Source: Isosphaeraceae bacterium (GTDB taxonomy: Bacteria; Planctomycetota; Planctomycetia; Isosphaerales; Isosphaeraceae). Taken from it: a stretch of 32,231 nt of DNA. Made by a program: the position numbers and the translations under genes. The DNA lies in assembly GCA_025356475.1 (NCBI GenBank), contig JANXSX010000123.1, forward strand, positions 1 through 32,231, written 5' to 3'. The notes under the pieces are model-generated. The model worked only from the letters and a program-made list of their open reading frames with translations, was not told where the DNA came from and searched no databases. Below are positions 578 through 14,278 of the stretch, piece after piece (within the stretch, counting starts at the first letter, position 1; every line of letters begins with the position of its first letter).

Positions 578-1243
578 TCACGCGGTCATGAGTGAGACGT
601 CGTCGAATTGTTGAAACTTCATGGTCATCAACGTTTTTAATGGATCAGCATAGGTGGTGGAAAGTCTGTCGATCGTTTCTTCGATGGCAGCTCGAAACCC
701 TGTGAACGTGGCGTGGTAGCGACCATAGAGGGAACGACGCTTGATGAACTTCCAGAGTCGCTCGATCAAGTTCAGGTTCGGCGAATACGAGGGCAAGAAT
801 AACAACGTGATTCCCAACTCCTTCGCCAGATCCTGCACTGTGGCGTTACGTTGATATCGGGCGTTGTCCAGCACGATCGTGATCGGTCCTTCGAGCCCAA
901 CTGCGGCGATCTTTCTCAGGAGTTCGCACATCGTCTCGGTGTTGACAACGGTCGTGTTGGTCACGCTGATCAATTCACGCGTGACAGCATTCCACGCACC
1001 CAACACGTTAAACCGCTGACGACCCGAAGCCGAACGGATAAAAAGTCGCGTGAATGACCACATGTTGCACAAATATGTTCCATGTACGAAATGAGCCGCG
1101 TCGACGAACAAGACATGGCCGTTCCCCGCTTGGGCGACGTCGAGCTTGGGTTTTAGCTCTTTGTCGAGAAACTCGGCTTGGGTTTCGATGTGTTCGTCCA
1201 AGTTTTTTTTGGCGGCACGGGGATGGCGCGGACGCTCCGCCAT
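578..1243 (-). CDS. IS630 transposase, downstream frame (DDE catalytic part)
   Basis: This frame holds the DDE catalytic domain that cuts and joins DNA ends. Visible motifs: LFVDAAHF (D48), VLDNARYQ (D126) and PNLNLIERLWKFIKRR (E161). Numbers count from the nominal ATG; translation probably enters by frameshift instead. It overlaps the upstream frame by 91 bp in the -1 register. Joined at the A8 run the product is about 354 residues, normal for IS630. No internal stop or missing catalytic residue is visible, so the element may still be active. Confidence 0.88.
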   Translation of the reverse strand: MAERPRHPRAAKKNLDEHIETQAEFLDKELKPKLDVAQAGNGHVLFVDAAHFVHGTYLCNMWSFTRLFIRSASGRQRFNVLGAWNAVTRELISVTNTTVVNTETMCELLRKIAAVGLEGPITIVLDNARYQRNATVQDLAKELGITLLFLPSYSPNLNLIERLWKFIKRRSLYGRYHATFTGFRAAIEETIDRLSTTYADPLKTLMTMKFQQFDDVSLMTA

Positions 1244-1644
1244 TTCATGCCCAGATCTTTGAGGAACTTGCGGACTTGGCTGGGACCACGCCGCAGTCCG
1301 GTCAGTTCAAAGATGCGCTCGCCCGCTTCGGCGACAGTGCGGGCGGGTTGATTCTCGAAGGATTGACGGATCAACTCGCGGTAGGCCACCATTTCGCTTT
1401 TGGGGCGATTCAGGTTCCACCGCCTTAGCCCGTCCAAGCCTCCCTCGCGGAAGGCGACCACGTAACGCTGGACTGTGGCCCGGCCAACACCAACAATCTC
1501 AGCCGACTTCCAGCGTGTAACGCCATTGTGTAACAACCACAACACGAGCATCTTTTCACGGATGCGCAGATTAGGGTGAGAGGAGCGTTCCTCCTCAACG
1601 ATCTGCTGCTGTTCTTCGGTCAGTTGAATACGAAGCCAAGCCAC
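1153..1644 (-). CDS. IS630 transposase, upstream frame (helix-turn-helix part)
   Basis: This is the 163-residue N-terminal frame of an IS630-type transposase. Residues about 10-75 form a helix-turn-helix that should bind the element ends: a KMLVLWLLHNG helix, then WKSAEIVGVGRATVQRYV, then a GLDGL turn. A second helical segment at about 85-135 contains the family-typical ELTGLRRGPSQVRKFLKDLG. The frame continues past the slippery A8 tract for about 15 residues of low-complexity sequence before stopping. That is what is expected when ribosomes must shift -1 to make the full enzyme. The unshifted product would bind DNA without the catalytic part and could act as a repressor (inference). Start codon chosen at the ATG before AWLRIQLTEEQQ. 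Confidence 0.85.
   Translation of the reverse strand: MAWLRIQLTEEQQQIVEEERSSHPNLRIREKMLVLWLLHNGVTRWKSAEIVGVGRATVQRYVVAFREGGLDGLRRWNLNRPKSEMVAYRELIRQSFENQPARTVAEAGERIFELTGLRRGPSQVRKFLKDLGMKWRSVRAIPVPPKKTWTNTSKPKPSFSTKS
1203..1210 (-). promoter_or_regulatory. A8 slippery site for -1 frameshifting in the transposase
   Basis: On the minus strand the sequence reads GCCGCC, then eight A, then CTTGG. In the upstream frame this is CCA AAA AAA ACT; one base back it is GCC AAA AAA AAC. The second reading is the frame of the DDE part. An A-AAA-AAA heptamer is a classic -1 slippage site in insertion sequences. The two frames are offset by exactly -1 and overlap across this site. Confidence 0.65.
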
Positions 1645-4511: not shown

Positions 4512-4747
4512 GCTGATTGAGTTGAAAAACCAAGGCTCAGTTCGCCACGTAATCGACTTCGTGTCGTTATTTGCAACGATTTCGATATCAGAGTTTGACT
4601 CACAAGCTCAATCTAATGACAATTGGATTCGTTTGACTCGAGATTGCGGATTTTGTGGGTTCCCGATTCCGGCGAACCCTGGTATTGTGCAAGTTGTCTT
4701 ACCAAGGAGGGTGGGGATGCTGGGTTTGCCACGGAAGGATTGCCGCC

Positions 4748-6169
4748 ATGCGACCGAGTTTCCACCGAGCGGCAGCACCACAGGGGCTCCCTGGTCCTCA
4801 TCTCACCGCTTTGAGAGACCCTCGCCCGATCGTCGAACTCTTCTTAGGAGTCTTCCGGCGCGATGTGCTGGGCTTCTATCCCCAGTGCCGCCTCGAACTC
4901 GATCTCGAGATGGAACCCAGGCACACGAACGGACCTGAGTTCCACGTTGCCGAGCACGATGGTCAGAGCCTGGCGGTCGAGATCTTTGGACTCCGCCACA
5001 TCCTCACGTCGGGCCGGGGCCATGGATTCAGCAGGAATGACCTCCGATTGGTCAACGCCGTCGGCGCAGTTGCCGGCCTACGTTACCACCACCTCTTTCA
5101 GATGGCCCATGCCCCCAGGCTCGAACTCTTCCGAGGTGGTTCCGAAGACCACTACGTCGCCGCCTACATCGAGCCCGAATTCTACACCCCGAAGGGGACT
5201 GAGCCGAGTCGGATCGCCTCAACGGTCCAGACACTCCGGACCGCTGCCCTCTCTACCTATGAGAACCGGCGGGTCTCGACCGGAGCCTTGCTGATCGGTG
5301 ACGACTGCAAATCGGGTCCCAAGACAGCGACGGATGCTTTACCATATGGCGTGGAATTAACCAGCCTCAAGAGTATCCATCGACTCTGTGACGGGCGTCG
5401 GACGCTGTTCCGGGTCGATCGCCAGGGGAGGCTCGCCGAGATCGTCGACATTGAGCGGTTCGCTGCGGAGATGACCGACGCTGATGGTCCCGAGGTCCCG
5501 TGCTCACAAGCTTATGTAGCTCATGCGAGAGCGACTCGGTCGGGGGGACATGTCTGCCTGGTTCTGAGTCCTAACCAGGAGATCAAGCTCTTTGCCGGCG
5601 GTGTCCAGGCCTTCGTCTTCGCCCATGGACGTTGGCGGATGCTCGACCCCGCGACGAAGTTCGCCATGTGGTGCGAGGCGGTTGGCAATCCCGAGGTGGC
5701 AACCTCCCTATTTCAGGCTGCACTCGACCTGGCGGAAAGTCGTCAAGGCGGGCTCTTCGTGGTCGTTGACCACCCCCAAGACGCGGTCGGGCGGCTGATT
5801 TCACCCCACGACATTATCGAAGATGATACCGAGGTAGGCCCTCCTCCCGAGTTAATGCCCGGTGACCCACTGGCGAAGCGTGCCCTTCACTATCTGGCTC
5901 GGGGACGCCGGCTTGTTGATCTGGACCCAGCGGTCCTCGAATCCCTGGCGGGTCTCGACGGAGCCTTGGTCGTCGATCGGCCGGGGCGTCTCCTGGCCTT
6001 CGGCGCGATCCTCCGACACGACGCGTCGAGCCTTCCCACTACCTTTGCCGCCGAAGGGGCCCGCACCACTGCCGCCCTCGTCGCCAGCCGGTTCGGGCCT
6101 GTCCTGAAAGTCAGTGAAGATGGCATCATCTCCTGCTTCCTTGACGGATCGAAAGCCTGGGACTTGTAA
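4748..6169 (+). CDS. Protein with C-terminal DisA_N (diadenylate cyclase)-like domain
   Basis: A 473-residue protein. Its last 150 residues follow the layout of the DAC domain that makes c-di-AMP: an AALDLAESRQGGLFVVV helix and strand (324-340), LDGALVVDRPGRLLAFGAIL with the DGA motif at 404-406, then EGARTTAALVAS (436-447), then VLKVSEDGIISCF (452-464). In active enzymes the second motif is GTRHRAA; here RHR reads RTT, so cyclase activity is doubtful and a nucleotide-binding role is possible. Residues 1-320 are unfamiliar, with an internal CDGRRTLFRVDRQGRL stretch. The frame opens at 4655, but the ATG at 4748 follows GGAAGGA and is preferred. It is convergent with the sigma factor gene across a shared terminator. 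Confidence 0.72.
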   Translation: MRPSFHRAAAPQGLPGPHLTALRDPRPIVELFLGVFRRDVLGFYPQCRLELDLEMEPRHTNGPEFHVAEHDGQSLAVEIFGLRHILTSGRGHGFSRNDLRLVNAVGAVAGLRYHHLFQMAHAPRLELFRGGSEDHYVAAYIEPEFYTPKGTEPSRIASTVQTLRTAALSTYENRRVSTGALLIGDDCKSGPKTATDALPYGVELTSLKSIHRLCDGRRTLFRVDRQGRLAEIVDIERFAAEMTDADGPEVPCSQAYVAHARATRSGGHVCLVLSPNQEIKLFAGGVQAFVFAHGRWRMLDPATKFAMWCEAVGNPEVATSLFQAALDLAESRQGGLFVVVDHPQDAVGRLISPHDIIEDDTEVGPPPELMPGDPLAKRALHYLARGRRLVDLDPAVLESLAGLDGALVVDRPGRLLAFGAILRHDASSLPTTFAAEGARTTAALVASRFGPVLKVSEDGIISCFLDGSKAWDL

Positions 6170-6252: not shown

Positions 6253-7926
6253 TCAGAACATCGGGAGTTCCATCCGCTCGTCGCGGGCGATGCGCTGGAG
6301 TTTTTGTTGGGCTCTCGACTCGATCTGGCGGACTCGCTCCTTGGTAATCCCCAGCTCGCGGCCGAGTTGCTCCAATGTGAGTTCGCTCGACCCATTGAGA
6401 CCAAAGCGACTGACGATGATCCTTCGCTCACGATCGTCGAGCCGTCCGAGCATCCCCTTGACCGCCTCTTGCATGCGTTTCTGTGCCGATTCGTACTCAT
6501 GTTCATCACTGCGATTGTCGGCGGCGGCCTCAAACATCTCTTCGTGACCCGTGACGAATCGGTCGCGACGGTAGTTCTCCTCCGGGATGGTCCGGGCGAA
6601 GTTCTTCATGATCGCCCAGCTTGCATATGTGCTGAACTTGTTCCCACGTGAGTAATCGAACTTCTCGACGGCGCGGATCAACGACATATTTCCGTCGCTG
6701 ACCAGCTCGAAGAAGTTGTTCGTGGCAATCACGTGTCGCTTGGCGATCGAGACAACGAGGCGAAGGTTTGCCCTGATGATCAAGTTCTTGACCGCGAGAG
6801 CCTTTTCTTGCAATTGTTCGATGCGATCAAGGTCGCTGGACTTCACGGTCGTGGGATCGATCGTCTCACGAAGCTTGATCGCTTGATGCTTGAGGAAGTT
6901 CATCTGTCGGAACAGATGGGCCTCCTGCTCCCGGGCCAAGAGCGGTACCTCGTACAAGCTACCGAGGTAAGGAGGAAGTCCTTTAGGCGGCTTCGTCTTG
7001 CGAGCCGACTTCTTGTCGGCGGGTTCCGGCATTGGGGCCATGATCTCGTCGAAGCAGGCGGGATCGTCGAAGCTGGCGTGTGGCATATGTTCAAGCTTGA
7101 CCGCGAGGATGCTGTGGGCACGCATCTCGTTGATCACGCGATAGATGCTCGAACGTGTCCGACCGAACTGGGCAACGAGAACCTCGACCGACACGCCGCG
7201 ACGCGTGTCTCGATAGATCGAGGCCTTGGCCTCTTCGTCGAGCGGTGCGACTGGAGTCGAAAAGATCGCGCGATCCGGGTGCTCGCGATCATAGGCTTTT
7301 AGCGTCATCCGGACCGTTTCGGTGGAGCGTTCCATTTTTCGTCCAATCCTTCTAGCGATCTCGGTCAGATTGCCCTGAGGAACCACGGCCATCCGCCGGG
7401 CACGGCGGACAATCTCATCACGTTCCGCGTCACTCAGATGCGTGAATTTCGTCCCACGCTCGACCTGTTCTTTATGAGCTTCCACGAAGCGTTCGACGCT
7501 CGACGTCAAGAAGCCAACCTGAGTTCGACCACCGATCTTGAACCGGCGAGCGATCAAGCCTTGGCGCCTCCACCGGGTCACGGTGCGGGTCGAGACATTG
7601 AACTGTTTGCTGACCGCCTGAACCGTCAACACTGGCTCGGTGGCGGCCTCGACCGGCTGGGTGACGGTTTCGGCAAGTTCCTCAACGAAGAGCCGTAGGT
7701 CGTGAGCGACCTCGTCGCCGTCGAGTACCAGAGCCGGCGCGTTCTCGGGCCGGAAGCCCGTGATCCGGAAGACCAGGTATTCGTAGGGGTAACGCTTGGT
7801 CGGGTCGATCTCGGCAAGCAAGACCTCAGCACGGTCGATCTGCTCGACCCGACGTTCGCGAGGAGCGAATCGGGTCTGCTGATCGCCAAGCTGCTTCAAC
7901 GCCGGATTGCGATATGCTCGGCTCAT
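6253..7926 (-). CDS. Sigma-70 family RNA polymerase sigma factor with N-terminal HTH modules, no region 3
   Basis: A 557-residue protein. Residues 99-150 form a MerR/excisionase-like helix-turn-helix (LTVQAVSKQFNVSTRTVTRW). Two further helix-turn-helix-like segments lie near 186-212 and 244-270, followed by a Lys/Pro linker (300-318). Region 1.2 is seen at 318-350 (LPPYLGSLYEVPLLAREQEA). Region 2 spans 381-455 and includes NLRLVVSIAKRH, SDGNMSLIRAVEKFDYSRGNKF and STYASWAIMKNFARTIP. Region 4 spans about 488-550, with LTLEQLGRELGITKERVRQIE. Only about 30 acidic residues separate regions 2 and 4, so the usual region 3 seems absent. The frame opens at 8109, but the ATG at 7926 follows GGAGG and is preferred. 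It is probably an alternative sigma factor whose activity is tuned by the N-terminal modules (inference). Confidence 0.88.
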   Translation of the reverse strand: MSRAYRNPALKQLGDQQTRFAPRERRVEQIDRAEVLLAEIDPTKRYPYEYLVFRITGFRPENAPALVLDGDEVAHDLRLFVEELAETVTQPVEAATEPVLTVQAVSKQFNVSTRTVTRWRRQGLIARRFKIGGRTQVGFLTSSVERFVEAHKEQVERGTKFTHLSDAERDEIVRRARRMAVVPQGNLTEIARRIGRKMERSTETVRMTLKAYDREHPDRAIFSTPVAPLDEEAKASIYRDTRRGVSVEVLVAQFGRTRSSIYRVINEMRAHSILAVKLEHMPHASFDDPACFDEIMAPMPEPADKKSARKTKPPKGLPPYLGSLYEVPLLAREQEAHLFRQMNFLKHQAIKLRETIDPTTVKSSDLDRIEQLQEKALAVKNLIIRANLRLVVSIAKRHVIATNNFFELVSDGNMSLIRAVEKFDYSRGNKFSTYASWAIMKNFARTIPEENYRRDRFVTGHEEMFEAAADNRSDEHEYESAQKRMQEAVKGMLGRLDDRERRIIVSRFGLNGSSELTLEQLGRELGITKERVRQIESRAQQKLQRIARDERMELPMF

Positions 7927-8577
7927 GGAAAATCGCGCCTCCGACTGATAGTACGCCGCGACCGATCCTCCCCACTCCGAGCAGCCCCGAGCCGTCGAAG
8001 TTCGCTCACTAACTTGTCTTACGTCCGCCGAAGGGTTCCGGAAAGGACTATCTCCAAAAACCCACAACCCATGTTGATCGACATTCCTGACCACTCCCCA
8101 ACAATTCATACGCTTGCTTTAATCAAACGTTTGAAACCGATCCATTGTTCGTTTTTCGGTCCAGTTTCACTAGGATTCTTCGACATTTCCTCGCCAACCA
8201 ATCGCCTATCTCCGATTTCCTTCCGTAGATAAACGCGCCTCTTGCTAGTTCGTGACACACAATGCTGCATGCATGCTATTAATCGAAAACCAATCCCATT
8301 GACCGACTCAATTCAAAAGTCGAAAATTGACAACGGGACCTCCTCCTTTTTAGGATCTGATCATCGGGTTCGTTGAGTTAGCACCGATGGTTGATGTCAG
8401 AAGTGCTGGTTGATTTTTCGCGTGTGCGGTCACGAGAGAATGCAATTCAGAGGCCCAAGAGGCAGACTGGACCTTATCAAGGAGCCAGGCCCGGGTCGGT
8501 ACTCCCTCGACACGCCCATGTTGTCTGGCCCAAGCTAGGAATGAAACGGCCCTGTCCCATGATATAGGAGGCTACGG
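7927..8577. other. Long divergent intergenic region (about 650 bp)
   Basis: This separates the sigma-factor gene (minus) from the first secreted-protein gene (plus). An open frame at 7702-8232 is mostly antisense to the sigma gene and has no motif, so it is not called. The region is more AT-rich than its surroundings (8100-8360) and contains a perfect GCATGCATGC palindrome at 8267-8276 and a sigma-70-like promoter at 8327-8356. It probably holds control signals for both neighbours. No structured RNA could be assigned. Confidence 0.5.
8327..8356 (+). promoter_or_regulatory. Candidate sigma-70 promoter
   Basis: TTGACA at 8327-8332 and TAGGAT at 8351-8356 are separated by 18 bp. The -35 box matches the consensus exactly and the -10 box at four of six positions. 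It points toward the gene starting at 8578 and would give a 5' leader of about 215 nt. It is called from sequence pattern only. Confidence 0.4.
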
Positions 8578-9930
8578 ATGGCCGAGAACATGCGAGTGGT
8601 CGTTGTCTACCTCATTCTGGCGACAACAATGGTGACAGGAGCAAGGGCGGAGCTTCTCCGTGAAGTTCCACAGCCTGACGTTGCGACCAAGGTACGTATC
8701 GAACTCAAGGCCGAGGGGAAGTTTCGGGTGCAGTCGGCCCCCGAGACCGCACCGGCCAAAGATAAGCACGAGCCTAGGCCGCTGGCACTCAAAGTCGAGT
8801 CGCGTTACCTCTTCCTTGAACGCGTTCTTGACCAAGTTGAGGGCCGCCCTGCTCGGGTGGGTCGCAAGGTGCTCCAAGCGGTGTCGGTCGTCAAGGGTGA
8901 GGTCCGACCGTTTGAGACCTCGATTCGACCGGAGGTGATGATGATCATCACCGAGCCCAAGGGGGCGGGTTACGAGTCCTTTAGCCCGGGCGGACCTCTA
9001 AACCGCTCGGAGTTGGAACTCGTCCAGGGGCCAGGCGATCCCATGTCGTTCTGGGGGCTGTTCTCAACCAAAGAGGTCAAGGTCGGCGATACCTGGACGG
9101 TCGCCGACGAGGTGGCCAGGTCCTTGAGCGGCTACGATTCCTTGGTTCAAAACCAGCTTGAGGTGACCCTAAAGTCGCTCGACGAGGCTCAAGCCGAGCT
9201 CACGATCAAGGGCCAAGTTCGCGGGTCTGCGCTCGGAGGAGATGGGGCGATGGGCTTGATCGGCTCGGCGGTTTTCGATCGGAAAGCCAATCAGGTGAAG
9301 AGGTTGCGGGTTGATCGCGCTGAGATTCGTCAGCCGGGACCTGTGGAAACAGGCCTCGACATGCAGAGCACCCTGACCATTGACCGTGAACCCGTCGCGA
9401 TCCCTGCCGAGCTTTCCGACTCAGCGGTCGGAGCCTTGCCGAAGCTTGCGCAACTTGGCTCGGAACTGCTGATATTCACCAGCCCAGACGGGACCTATAC
9501 TTTCCTTCATGACCGAGCGTGGCACCTCGCGAGTGACGACATTCGGCAGGTTGTCTTCAAGAAGCTCGATCGCGGCGATGTCGTTGCCCAGTGCAATCTC
9601 GTCGTGGGTCCGAACGCGGGCAAGGGACGGCATCAGGATGTCACCGAGTTTCGTGAGGACGTCAAGAAAGCACTCGGAGTCCGATTTGTTAGCATCCTGG
9701 GCGCTGGTGAAGTTGAAGGGGCTCCCGCAGGCAACTATCGCTACAAAGTTGCAGTCCAGGGGCGTGAGGGAGAACTCGGGCTCGTCTGGTACTATTATCT
9801 GGTTGCCAGCCCCGCAGGCGATCAACTGCTTGTGACATTCACGTTGGGCCAAGCCAAGTCTGAAACGTTCGGCGAGGCTGACCAGCAACTGATCGGTCGC
9901 CTGGAATGGACGGGAAAGCCCCGGCGCTAG
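8578..9930 (+). CDS. Secreted protein of unknown function (first of a tandem pair)
   Basis: A 450-residue protein with a signal peptide (about 1-24, ending TGARA). The middle part, about 90-290, is rich in beta-strand patterns (VKVGDTWTVADEVA, then AELTIKGQVRG, then MQSTLTIDREPV), like secreted proteins that score the conversion of polar repeats. From about residue 295 a separate C-terminal domain starts with FTSPDGTYTFLHDRAWHL. The same kind of domain ends the next gene (DPKGRFQFRHPQDLIPEP), so the two are likely ancient paralogues. An AGGAGG stands 6 bp before the ATG. I do not recognise a named family. It probably works in the periplasm or envelope. Confidence 0.75.
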   Translation: MAENMRVVVVYLILATTMVTGARAELLREVPQPDVATKVRIELKAEGKFRVQSAPETAPAKDKHEPRPLALKVESRYLFLERVLDQVEGRPARVGRKVLQAVSVVKGEVRPFETSIRPEVMMIITEPKGAGYESFSPGGPLNRSELELVQGPGDPMSFWGLFSTKEVKVGDTWTVADEVARSLSGYDSLVQNQLEVTLKSLDEAQAELTIKGQVRGSALGGDGAMGLIGSAVFDRKANQVKRLRVDRAEIRQPGPVETGLDMQSTLTIDREPVAIPAELSDSAVGALPKLAQLGSELLIFTSPDGTYTFLHDRAWHLASDDIRQVVFKKLDRGDVVAQCNLVVGPNAGKGRHQDVTEFREDVKKALGVRFVSILGAGEVEGAPAGNYRYKVAVQGREGELGLVWYYYLVASPAGDQLLVTFTLGQAKSETFGEADQQLIGRLEWTGKPRR

Positions 9931-10007
9931 ACAGCTCAAGCTCGCTTTTCTGTAGAATAAGTACGATTGATTTTTTCCTTCGCCGAATTCCGACGCGAGA
10001 CTGCATC

Positions 10008-11648
10008 ATGAGGCGATCCACGGCCTTTTTCTTGACCACGACCTTGAGCACCCGCGTCTGGGTCGGGATTGCCTTGGGTGTCATCTCGTCTTTGATGGCG
10101 ACCGATTCCACTCGAGCCCAAACTCCGGTGGCGGCACCCGCTCAGGAGAAGGGAAAGACGCCGGAAAAGGACAAGACGCCGGAGAAGGGGAAAGCTCCTG
10201 AGACCAAGGCCGAACCGAACGACCTTGGCAACGGTGTTGTTCGGATCAGTGATATCACGAACCGCTATCATTTCTCCGAGAAGTACAACCCCCTGGCAAC
10301 GCAAAGCTCAACGAATCAGATAGGCCAGTATCGCGTTGCATCCAAGTTCACGATCAAGACCGCAACGGATCGCCCCGAGGGGTCGCCTGAACGGACAGAA
10401 GGCTCGACGCAGGTCATCTACACGGAGCGGCCTGCGATCATCGGGGTGAATGGCCAGGTCCTCAAGACGGTCCGGCAATTTGAGAAGATCCGGGTCAACC
10501 GGCTCGCTGCGAATAAGCAGACCCAGATACCGACCGCCGCCGATGGCCTTCTGATCTGGTACGAGTCACGACTGGGTGTTCCCCCCTTGATCCTCTCGAT
10601 CTCGCCGAATCGCCAACTCCAGGAACTCGAATATCAGATCGCAACAACTCAGGTCTTCATGCCCGACCTGACCGGCGTCCTCCCCAACGCCCCCAGCCGC
10701 ATCGGCGATTCCTGGCGAATCACTCGTCCGGCAGTCCAGGCCTTCCTGGGTGAGCGTCAGATCCGTGGCGATAACCTGCTCGGTAGGTTCGTTGAACTTC
10801 GCAAGGACACAAAGACTGGGATCTTCGTCGCCGTGATCTCGATCCAAGGGACAGTGACCAACCAGGCGGCCAATACGGTAATCAACGCCGAGGTTCGCTT
10901 CACATTCGTTCCGCCAACCGCGTCGAATGATCCGAACGTCAAAGCGGCTGAGACGATTGTTGGTAAGATCGAAGCTCAAGGCTCAATCACCGATGTTCGG
11001 ATGGGCCTTGTGACGACCGTGTCGGTCGCTCGTGGCAACACCCGTCTCAAGCAAACCGATACCCGCGAACTCATCCTGGAACGTCGGCCCGCCTACGACA
11101 CAGTTCAGCTTCAGATCCCGAACCCAACTCCGACTCCAACCGATCAGAACTCATGGATCACGTCGATCGACCCCAAAGGGCGGTTCCAGTTCCGCCATCC
11201 TCAAGACCTGATCCCCGAGCCCGCCAACGACGATCCCGATAGCATCATTCTTAAGAAGATCAACCCGGAAGGGCCAGACATCGTCGTGTTGCGATTCTCC
11301 CCCGACGACGAAGATCAAGACGATATGTACAAGAAGCTCAAGGCCGATTGGGAAGGTTTTGAACTCAAGAAGGTTGAGGTTCGCAGGGGAGAACCGAAGT
11401 ACCTCCTCGAAAGTGACTGGCCCGACAAACGGACCTATCACGTCGACGCCGCCATCATCGCCAGACTACCAGGAAGCGCTCGGACTCAGACAATCTTTAA
11501 TAACTATTACCTAATTCGATTTCGCCAAAAGGGAAGCCTGATCGTTCAAGCAACGACCATGAAGGACCCCTCATTCAGATTCCGGCGTGAAGTTGAGGAC
11601 TTCCTCAAAACCTTCAAGCTTAGTGTTGACGCCGCCCCGAAGCTTTAG
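10008..11648 (+). CDS. Secreted protein of unknown function (second of a tandem pair)
   Basis: A 546-residue protein. The frame opens at 9906, inside the previous gene, but the ATG at 10008 begins a clean signal peptide (MRRSTAFFL, then a hydrophobic core ending STRAQ), so that start is chosen despite a weak ribosome binding site. A Lys/Pro/Glu repeat (KTPEKDKTPEKGKAPE) follows, then a beta-rich central region (about 110-380) containing IGDSWRITRPAVQAF, the counterpart of VGDTWTVAD in the preceding gene. The C-terminal domain (about 395-546) begins DPKGRFQFRHPQ and ends EDFLKTFKLS. It probably forms an operon with the preceding gene (77 bp gap). Function unknown; the shared plan suggests partners or duplicates. 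Confidence 0.75.
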   Translation: MRRSTAFFLTTTLSTRVWVGIALGVISSLMATDSTRAQTPVAAPAQEKGKTPEKDKTPEKGKAPETKAEPNDLGNGVVRISDITNRYHFSEKYNPLATQSSTNQIGQYRVASKFTIKTATDRPEGSPERTEGSTQVIYTERPAIIGVNGQVLKTVRQFEKIRVNRLAANKQTQIPTAADGLLIWYESRLGVPPLILSISPNRQLQELEYQIATTQVFMPDLTGVLPNAPSRIGDSWRITRPAVQAFLGERQIRGDNLLGRFVELRKDTKTGIFVAVISIQGTVTNQAANTVINAEVRFTFVPPTASNDPNVKAAETIVGKIEAQGSITDVRMGLVTTVSVARGNTRLKQTDTRELILERRPAYDTVQLQIPNPTPTPTDQNSWITSIDPKGRFQFRHPQDLIPEPANDDPDSIILKKINPEGPDIVVLRFSPDDEDQDDMYKKLKADWEGFELKKVEVRRGEPKYLLESDWPDKRTYHVDAAIIARLPGSARTQTIFNNYYLIRFRQKGSLIVQATTMKDPSFRFRREVEDFLKTFKLSVDAAPKL

Positions 11649-13714: not shown

Positions 13715-14278
13715 TTGGGTGCTTACGGCAACGAAGATAACCTCGCTGACGGCAACCTGATCCAGAAAGTCAGCATCGCCTCGTCGCAGGAGACCGACTA
13801 CACCTGGGATTTCCGCCATCGCCTCGTCGAGGTCATCAAAAAGAACGCAGCCGGAACCGTTTCGCTTGATGAAGTCTTCACGTATGACGCGCTCGACCGT
13901 CGGATCGCGGTGAGTGTCTCGACTTACGACGCGAACGGAACTCCCTCGGTCTCGGCCACGTATACCGCCTACGACGGCACCACCAATCTCCCCTACGCCG
14001 ACTTCAATACGGCGGGCATGCTCACCACGCGGTATCTCTGGGCCGACACCGGCTTGGTGGACCTCCTGCTGGCTCGGCTCGACGGAGCGACCGGCGTCGC
14101 TTGGTACCTCACCGACGAGGAAGGCTCGATCCAGGAGATCGTCGATCCCAACGGCAACGTCCTGGACCGGATAGACTACGGGCCGTTTGGCGAACTCGTG
14201 TCTGAAACCAACCCCTCGGCGGGCGACCGGTTCAAATATGCCGGAGGTGCCTACGACCCCAACACCGGCTTGATCTAG
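13715..14278 (+). pseudogene. RHS-repeat protein, 3' fragment
   Basis: The translation carries YD/RHS repeats: GNLIQKVS, YTWDFRHRLVEVI, EVFTYDALDRRIAV and YLTDEEGSIQEIVDPNGNV, then DYGPFGELVSE and FKYAGGAYDPNTGLI. Normal RHS proteins continue from the last motif with a YYDP-type end of the core and a variable toxin tip. Here a TAG follows GLI directly. The 5' part is also missing: the frame begins in the last third of an RHS protein, with a non-ATG start and no ribosome binding site. It is best read as a relic of a large RHS or polymorphic toxin gene. Confidence 0.7.

Follow-up and report, generated by a model that had tools for sequence, protein, structure and literature searches.

The window, a stretch of 32,231 nucleotides from an Isosphaeraceae bacterium, carries on its minus strand a coding sequence (6253–7926, ATG at 7926) whose translation is a sigma-70-family protein of 557 residues plus stop, termed P0001. 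Another in-frame ATG lies at 8109, yet the starts of the orthologues correspond to the ATG at 7926. Pfam recognised Sigma70_r2 at residues 384–440 (48.1 bits, cut-off 24) and Sigma70_r4 at residues 493–544 (54.4 bits, cut-off 24.1), both above the curated cut-offs that place a protein in the sigma-70 family, and TIGR02937 covered residues 383–545 as a single stretch. P0001 would thus be expected to associate with core RNA polymerase and to start transcription. Assignment of P0001 as the primary sigma was rejected, since RpoD is a separate gene on another contig; region 1.1, the mark of RpoD, was detected in 57 of 59 relatives' genomes. Orthologues are 547–564 residues long with pI values mostly of 9–9.9, and the RpoD of the same genome has a pI of 6.1. 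This genome (5.9 Mb) gave 34 Sigma70_r2 matches, many of them in short, ECF-sized frames.

Two probable secreted proteins are encoded divergently from the P0001 gene, one at 8578–9930 on the plus strand with a sub-threshold Pfam match to DUF6263, the other next to it at 9906–11648. In a neighbourhood comparison, 50 of the 75 other sigma loci had homologues of this group next to them. By eye, genes resembling those of ribosomal proteins L11, L1 and L10, and perhaps secE/nusG, were seen near the sigma gene on the downstream side in up to about 20 of 76 loci. Two overlapping reading frames at 578–1644 (minus strand) were read, also by eye, as a frameshift-split IS630-type transposase, and a fragment at 13715–14278 as an RHS-repeat protein.

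When regions upstream of the sigma genes were searched for spaced word pairs without bias, the motif GAAC-N17-CGT[CA] emerged; GAAC-N17-CGT has the form of an ECF promoter. The window holds a variant of it, the promoter-like site GAAC-N17-CGTT, at 8126–8150 (minus strand) upstream of the P0001 gene. Conserved across Planctomycetia, the motif was present upstream of 40 of 96 dereplicated orthologous loci, compared with at most 7 for any other single spacing, and upstream of none of the 96 on the reverse strand; N16 and N17 combined accounted for 45 of 96 regions, against a maximum of 7 in 200 shuffles. Upstream of short paralogues, of deep orthologues and of RpoD, matches were only scattered and at chance level. 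Genome-wide, GAAC-N17-CGTC gave 379 matches versus 459 for the N14 control spacing; with no excess over the control, a large regulon was not supported, so any regulon is small. Because region 4 of P0001 is RpoD-like, an ECF sigma is favoured as the reader of this promoter rather than P0001 itself. The gene thus appears to be activated from an ECF-type promoter, which would put it below an ECF sigma or make it autoregulated.

The sigma core and its linker

Regions 1.2, 2 and 4, which a sequence-only reading had discerned, were all recovered. Region 1.2 (residues 315–345; 6892–6984, minus strand, as for all features of P0001 below) had no Pfam match and was placed by alignment with HrdB/SigA from residue 317 and by superposition of an AlphaFold model, built on 52 orthologues (mean pLDDT 83), on a solved sigma over residues 315–450 (136 residues, 3.6 Å, Z 13.8, 38% identity). 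Shortly before it, alignments revealed a segment (residues 279–300; 7027–7092) in which F286 is invariant in Planctomycetia and nearly so in the deep alignment, and which is also present in short paralogues and phage relatives without the full helix-turn-helix (HTH) array. Region 2 (residues 378–448; 6583–6795) was delimited by Pfam and alignments, and region 4 (residues 485–546; 6289–6474) by Pfam and alignment to RpoD. Core-contact and melting positions of region 2 are kept or conservatively replaced (N387, E407, D411, N413, F423, R427, F431, Y434, W437 and R445). In place of RpoD W434, Q437 and T440 (E. coli numbering), P0001 has A438, K441 and A444, which are invariant across the 52-sequence alignment, and a −10 element other than that of RpoD is therefore expected. 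Region 2.2 has a serine where Q406 would stand, so affinity for core may be altered. The recognition helix of region 4, TKERVRQIE, is RpoD-like.

The same reading had region 3 missing and some 30 acidic residues joining regions 2 and 4. Profile–profile alignment to the RpoD of the same genome matched regions 2 and 4 at about 39% identity and left one 57-residue gap, at RpoD 392–448, corresponding to regions 3.0–3.1. Neither the listed Pfam matches of P0001 nor the family table for 25 aligned orthologues included a region 3, and residues 445–495 gave no credible match when searched alone. AlphaFold modelled no region-3 domain and assigned pLDDT below 50 to residues 450–473. With neither a Pfam match nor a fold, a region 3 hidden in the linker was rejected. 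The folded region 3 (3.0–3.1) of group 1–3 sigmas is absent from P0001, and a region-3.2-like disordered linker remains (residues 449–484; 6475–6582), placed in the region 3.2 position by RpoD alignment and AlphaFold. The linker is acidic as described (11 acidic and 6 basic of 36 residues), and the loss narrows to regions 3.0–3.1.

N1 and the helix-turn-helix array

Three HTH modules in place of region 1.1 had been proposed for the N-terminal 300 residues. The three modules and the lack of region 1.1 held up, and a further domain, N1 (residues 8–92; 7651–7905), precedes them. N1 is a new domain that the sequence-only reading missed, characterised here with AlphaFold, Pfam, hhalign and fold searches as a mixed α/β unit; residues 1–98 modelled alone reached pLDDT 89 and pTM 0.79. 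N1 was rejected as a region 1.1, since residues 1–98 have no Pfam match and hhalign gave a probability of 0.2% against region 1.1 of RpoD; by comparison, region 1.1 of the RpoD from the same genome scored 65.4 bits. P0001 thus lacks the region 1.1 of group 1 (primary) sigmas. Comparison of N1 with solved structures yielded nothing convincing (best Foldseek E value 2.2, best VIA Z 5.2). At one locus in another genome (L309 in G066), a sigma core is fused directly to an N1-like domain with no HTH between.

HTH1 (residues 99–150; 7477–7632) is winged and excisionase/MerR-like according to Pfam, AlphaFold and phrog_66, and exceeded the Pfam cut-offs for HTH_17 (residues 99–151) and HTH_23. The MerR profiles themselves stayed below their cut-offs (MerR 19.9 versus 28.2, MerR_1 15.2 versus 21.6), which leaves HTH1 outside the MerR family. 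HTH2 (residues 160–215; 7282–7449) has a weak HTH_38 match under the cut-off and was modelled as a tri-helical HTH, and HTH3 (residues 229–275; 7102–7242), HTH_28/HTH_29-like and likewise tri-helical in the model, exceeded the Pfam cut-off for HTH_28 at residues 241–273. Structure prediction gave HTH folds for all three segments, with four N-terminal units in total: N1 (residues 8–92), a winged HTH (99–150) and two tri-helical HTHs (166–215 and 231–275). As no region-3 match appeared either, the sequence-only reading withstood both checks that could have overturned it. Because only sigma factors were listed when the full model was used as a query for similar folds, Pfam and predicted secondary structure are the basis for the HTH folds. 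The overall pTM of the full model was 0.45, so the relative arrangement of the domains is not fixed by it.

In HTH1, T115, R118, G123, L124 and F147 are invariant, deep relatives included, and R200 and R206 of HTH2 are nearly so; residues 97–276 have a pI of 11.2. Together with survival of the array after sigma decay (below), this conservation of the recognition helices and the basic charge indirectly support the proposal that the array may bind DNA at additional sites. Searches yielded no target sites for the array and no match to the N-terminal part of P0001 on plasmids.

Distribution, relatives and decay of the sigma core

The same layout proved to be widespread in planctomycetes, where a survey had been suggested. 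A match covering at least 449 residues of P0001 was found in 56 of 59 related genomes; the exceptions (G009, G015 and G021, two of them incomplete genomes) hold fragments, or matches confined to the sigma parts of unrelated loci's genes. Because orthologues are near-universal and 46–77% identical to P0001 end to end, a chance origin of the architecture is ruled out, and in Pfam all 25 aligned family members share both sigma regions and the HTH families of P0001. The architecture observed in P0001 was thus confirmed as real. When 84,980 species were scanned and the best 80 loci examined, all belonged to Planctomycetota or to records without a phylum name, one being a MAG record labelled Kuenenia, itself a planctomycete. 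The full-length architecture continues outside Planctomycetia at about 23–39% identity, and the array is retained in all full-length orthologues. Within Planctomycetia, mean identity is 44–57% for the N-terminal domains and 55–75% for the sigma parts, regions 1.2 and 2 being best conserved at 71–75% (region 2, 75%). This top conservation and the kept F431, Y434 and W437 argue for working sigma activity in Planctomycetia.

Searches of an open-access library, in which most subscription journals are missing, gave no description of this architecture. In R. baltica, heat, cold and salt stress all repress RB12251, a protein of 567 residues with pI 9.4 described as an 'RNA polymerase specialized sigma factor' (PMC2754498); its length and pI fit the P0001 family, of which it is a candidate member. 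The housekeeping sigma is the sole sigma named in the available text of a P. limnophila essentiality study (PMC10632474).

Paralogues in Isosphaeraceae keep the core with at most HTH2–HTH3 (in the genome that encodes P0001, L056 at 4701–5684). Large-phage contigs of IMG/VR (L198–L204 and L209; 82–459 kb) encode region-3-less relatives of residues 272–545 that are about 300 residues long. In a sigma tree built as a quick tree with some long branches, the phage relatives form one clade (support 98) adjoining short planctomycete paralogues, and all region-3-less sequences of the set lie on the same side of a branch (support 100) from the region-3-bearing sigmas, consistent with a single loss of region 3. 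Since paralogues and phage relatives have this core but not the full array, a sigma of this kind can lack region 3 without possessing the HTHs, and the two traits are separable.

In five deeper families (f11, f54, f63, f64 and f66), N1 and the three HTHs are kept at 19–44% identity to P0001, and the sigma core has decayed. The signature motifs of region 2 are gone, with the Pfam match below cut-off or absent in all six proteins tested; region 4 is either missing (f54, f64) or weakened, its cut-off still being passed by two of the six (L284 and L285). Four of four intact controls passed both cut-offs. In f11, mean identity is 38–48% for the N-terminal domains versus 28–35% for the sigma remnants, the opposite of Planctomycetia. 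Decay probably happened at least twice, because f64 is separated from the other decayed families by a branch with support 99 on the N-terminal tree, where parsimony requires four changes. A separate, intact region-3-less sigma was present in 18 of 20 decayed-core genomes versus 5 of 13 intact-core genomes (read from the match table; Fisher p 0.005, relatedness uncorrected). The fused-or-split rule is broken by two f64 genomes (G329 and G212), which have a decayed core and no separate region-3-less sigma at E 1e-8. As separate region-3-less sigmas also coexist with intact fused genes (for example in G185), duplication may have come first and decay after. The best indication that the array has its own function is that it survives where the sigma core is lost, which suggests a role in choosing transcription start sites.

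Candidate role and comparison with known systems

Sigma factors normally depend on separate activators for extra DNA contacts. We give roughly even odds (about 0.5) to P0001 being an alternative sigma with an HTH array that tethers the holoenzyme to specific sites on DNA. Regions 1.2, 2 and 4 would engage core RNA polymerase, recognise the −35 and −10 elements and melt DNA, the −35 helix being RpoD-like and the reading of −10 unlike that of RpoD. With regions 3.0–3.1 gone, the extended −10 contact would not be usable; the N1-HTH1-HTH2-HTH3 array would bind specific sequences, presumably close to the promoter or upstream of it, and could compensate for the binding energy and selectivity that went with them, acting in cis as an activator acts in trans. 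Array and region-3-less core would form a functional pair, fused in Planctomycetia and perhaps split in several other planctomycete families. Against this anchoring role, HTH domains can also bind proteins, and close paralogues in the same genomes lack HTH1–HTH2, so not every such core needs an array. More tentatively, and with the odds leaning against it, N1, the triple-HTH array and the region-3-less core could constitute one promoter-selection unit of a phylum-wide DNA-anchored system, fused in Planctomycetia, two proteins in several other planctomycete families, and with its sigma half in large phages.

That the N-terminal 300 residues instead form a gate appears unlikely; in the manner of region 1.1 or a fused anti-sigma, they would mask regions 2 and 4 until these were released by a signal or partner, and the HTHs would contact protein. 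The array does occupy the position of region 1.1, N1, which resembles no solved fold convincingly, could be an interaction domain, and HTH folds sometimes bind proteins; however, the best-kept residues are those of the recognition helices (T115, R118, G123 and L124 invariant, R200 and R206 nearly so), the array is strongly basic, and it persists where no normal sigma core remains to be gated. We equally doubt that P0001 is foremost a site-specific DNA-binding regulator or chromosome organiser whose sigma core is a polymerase docking module that need not initiate. Phylum-wide conservation of the array, loss of region 2 and/or 4 in the five decayed families and the altered −10 residues would fit such a protein, whereas the conservation of regions 1.2 and 2 above all other parts in Planctomycetia, with the melting residues kept, would not. 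An ordinary alternative sigma with vestigial HTH domains attached, as the paralogues that have shed HTH1–HTH2 and the array-less phage relatives might suggest, is quite improbable given that every full-length orthologue retains the array, which also outlasts decay of the core.

If P0001 is an alternative sigma anchored by its array, a conserved sigma with built-in DNA binding, present in nearly all Planctomycetia genomes examined, would represent a distinct solution to promoter selection, and its family a candidate global regulator in a phylum whose transcription is poorly understood. Fused versus separate halves across families offer a natural experiment; the N1 domain is new, and the proposed ECF-to-sigma cascade is testable.

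ECF factors are about 200 residues long. Like these group 4 sigmas, P0001 has regions 2 and 4 on a short linker without a region-3 domain; unlike them, it also possesses region 1.2, a −35 helix resembling that of RpoD and a long, 300-residue N-terminal array. The available sections of a review of ECFs with extensions describe regulatory domains and fused anti-sigmas, an HTH array not being among them (PMC8999054). With group 1/2 sigmas (RpoD, RpoS), P0001 shares alignable regions 2 and 4 and a region 1.2 that aligns with HrdB/SigA, but it lacks regions 1.1 and 3.0–3.1 and has replaced −10 residues. MzaA of the MZA anti-phage system (NF041931) was the best NCBIfam match by E value, strongest over regions 1.2–2, yet at 146 bits against a cut-off of 800 it reflects generic sigma parts only, and P0001 is not a member. 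HTH1 resembles excisionase/MerR-type winged HTHs (HTH_17; phrog_66, matching residues 87–158) in fold and sequence, and differs in being fused to a sigma core. Phage sigmas (phrog_351) of large IMG/VR contigs, although only about 300 residues long and devoid of N1 and the HTH array, share with P0001 both the region-3-less core and the segment preceding region 1.2, at about 30% identity over residues 272–545.
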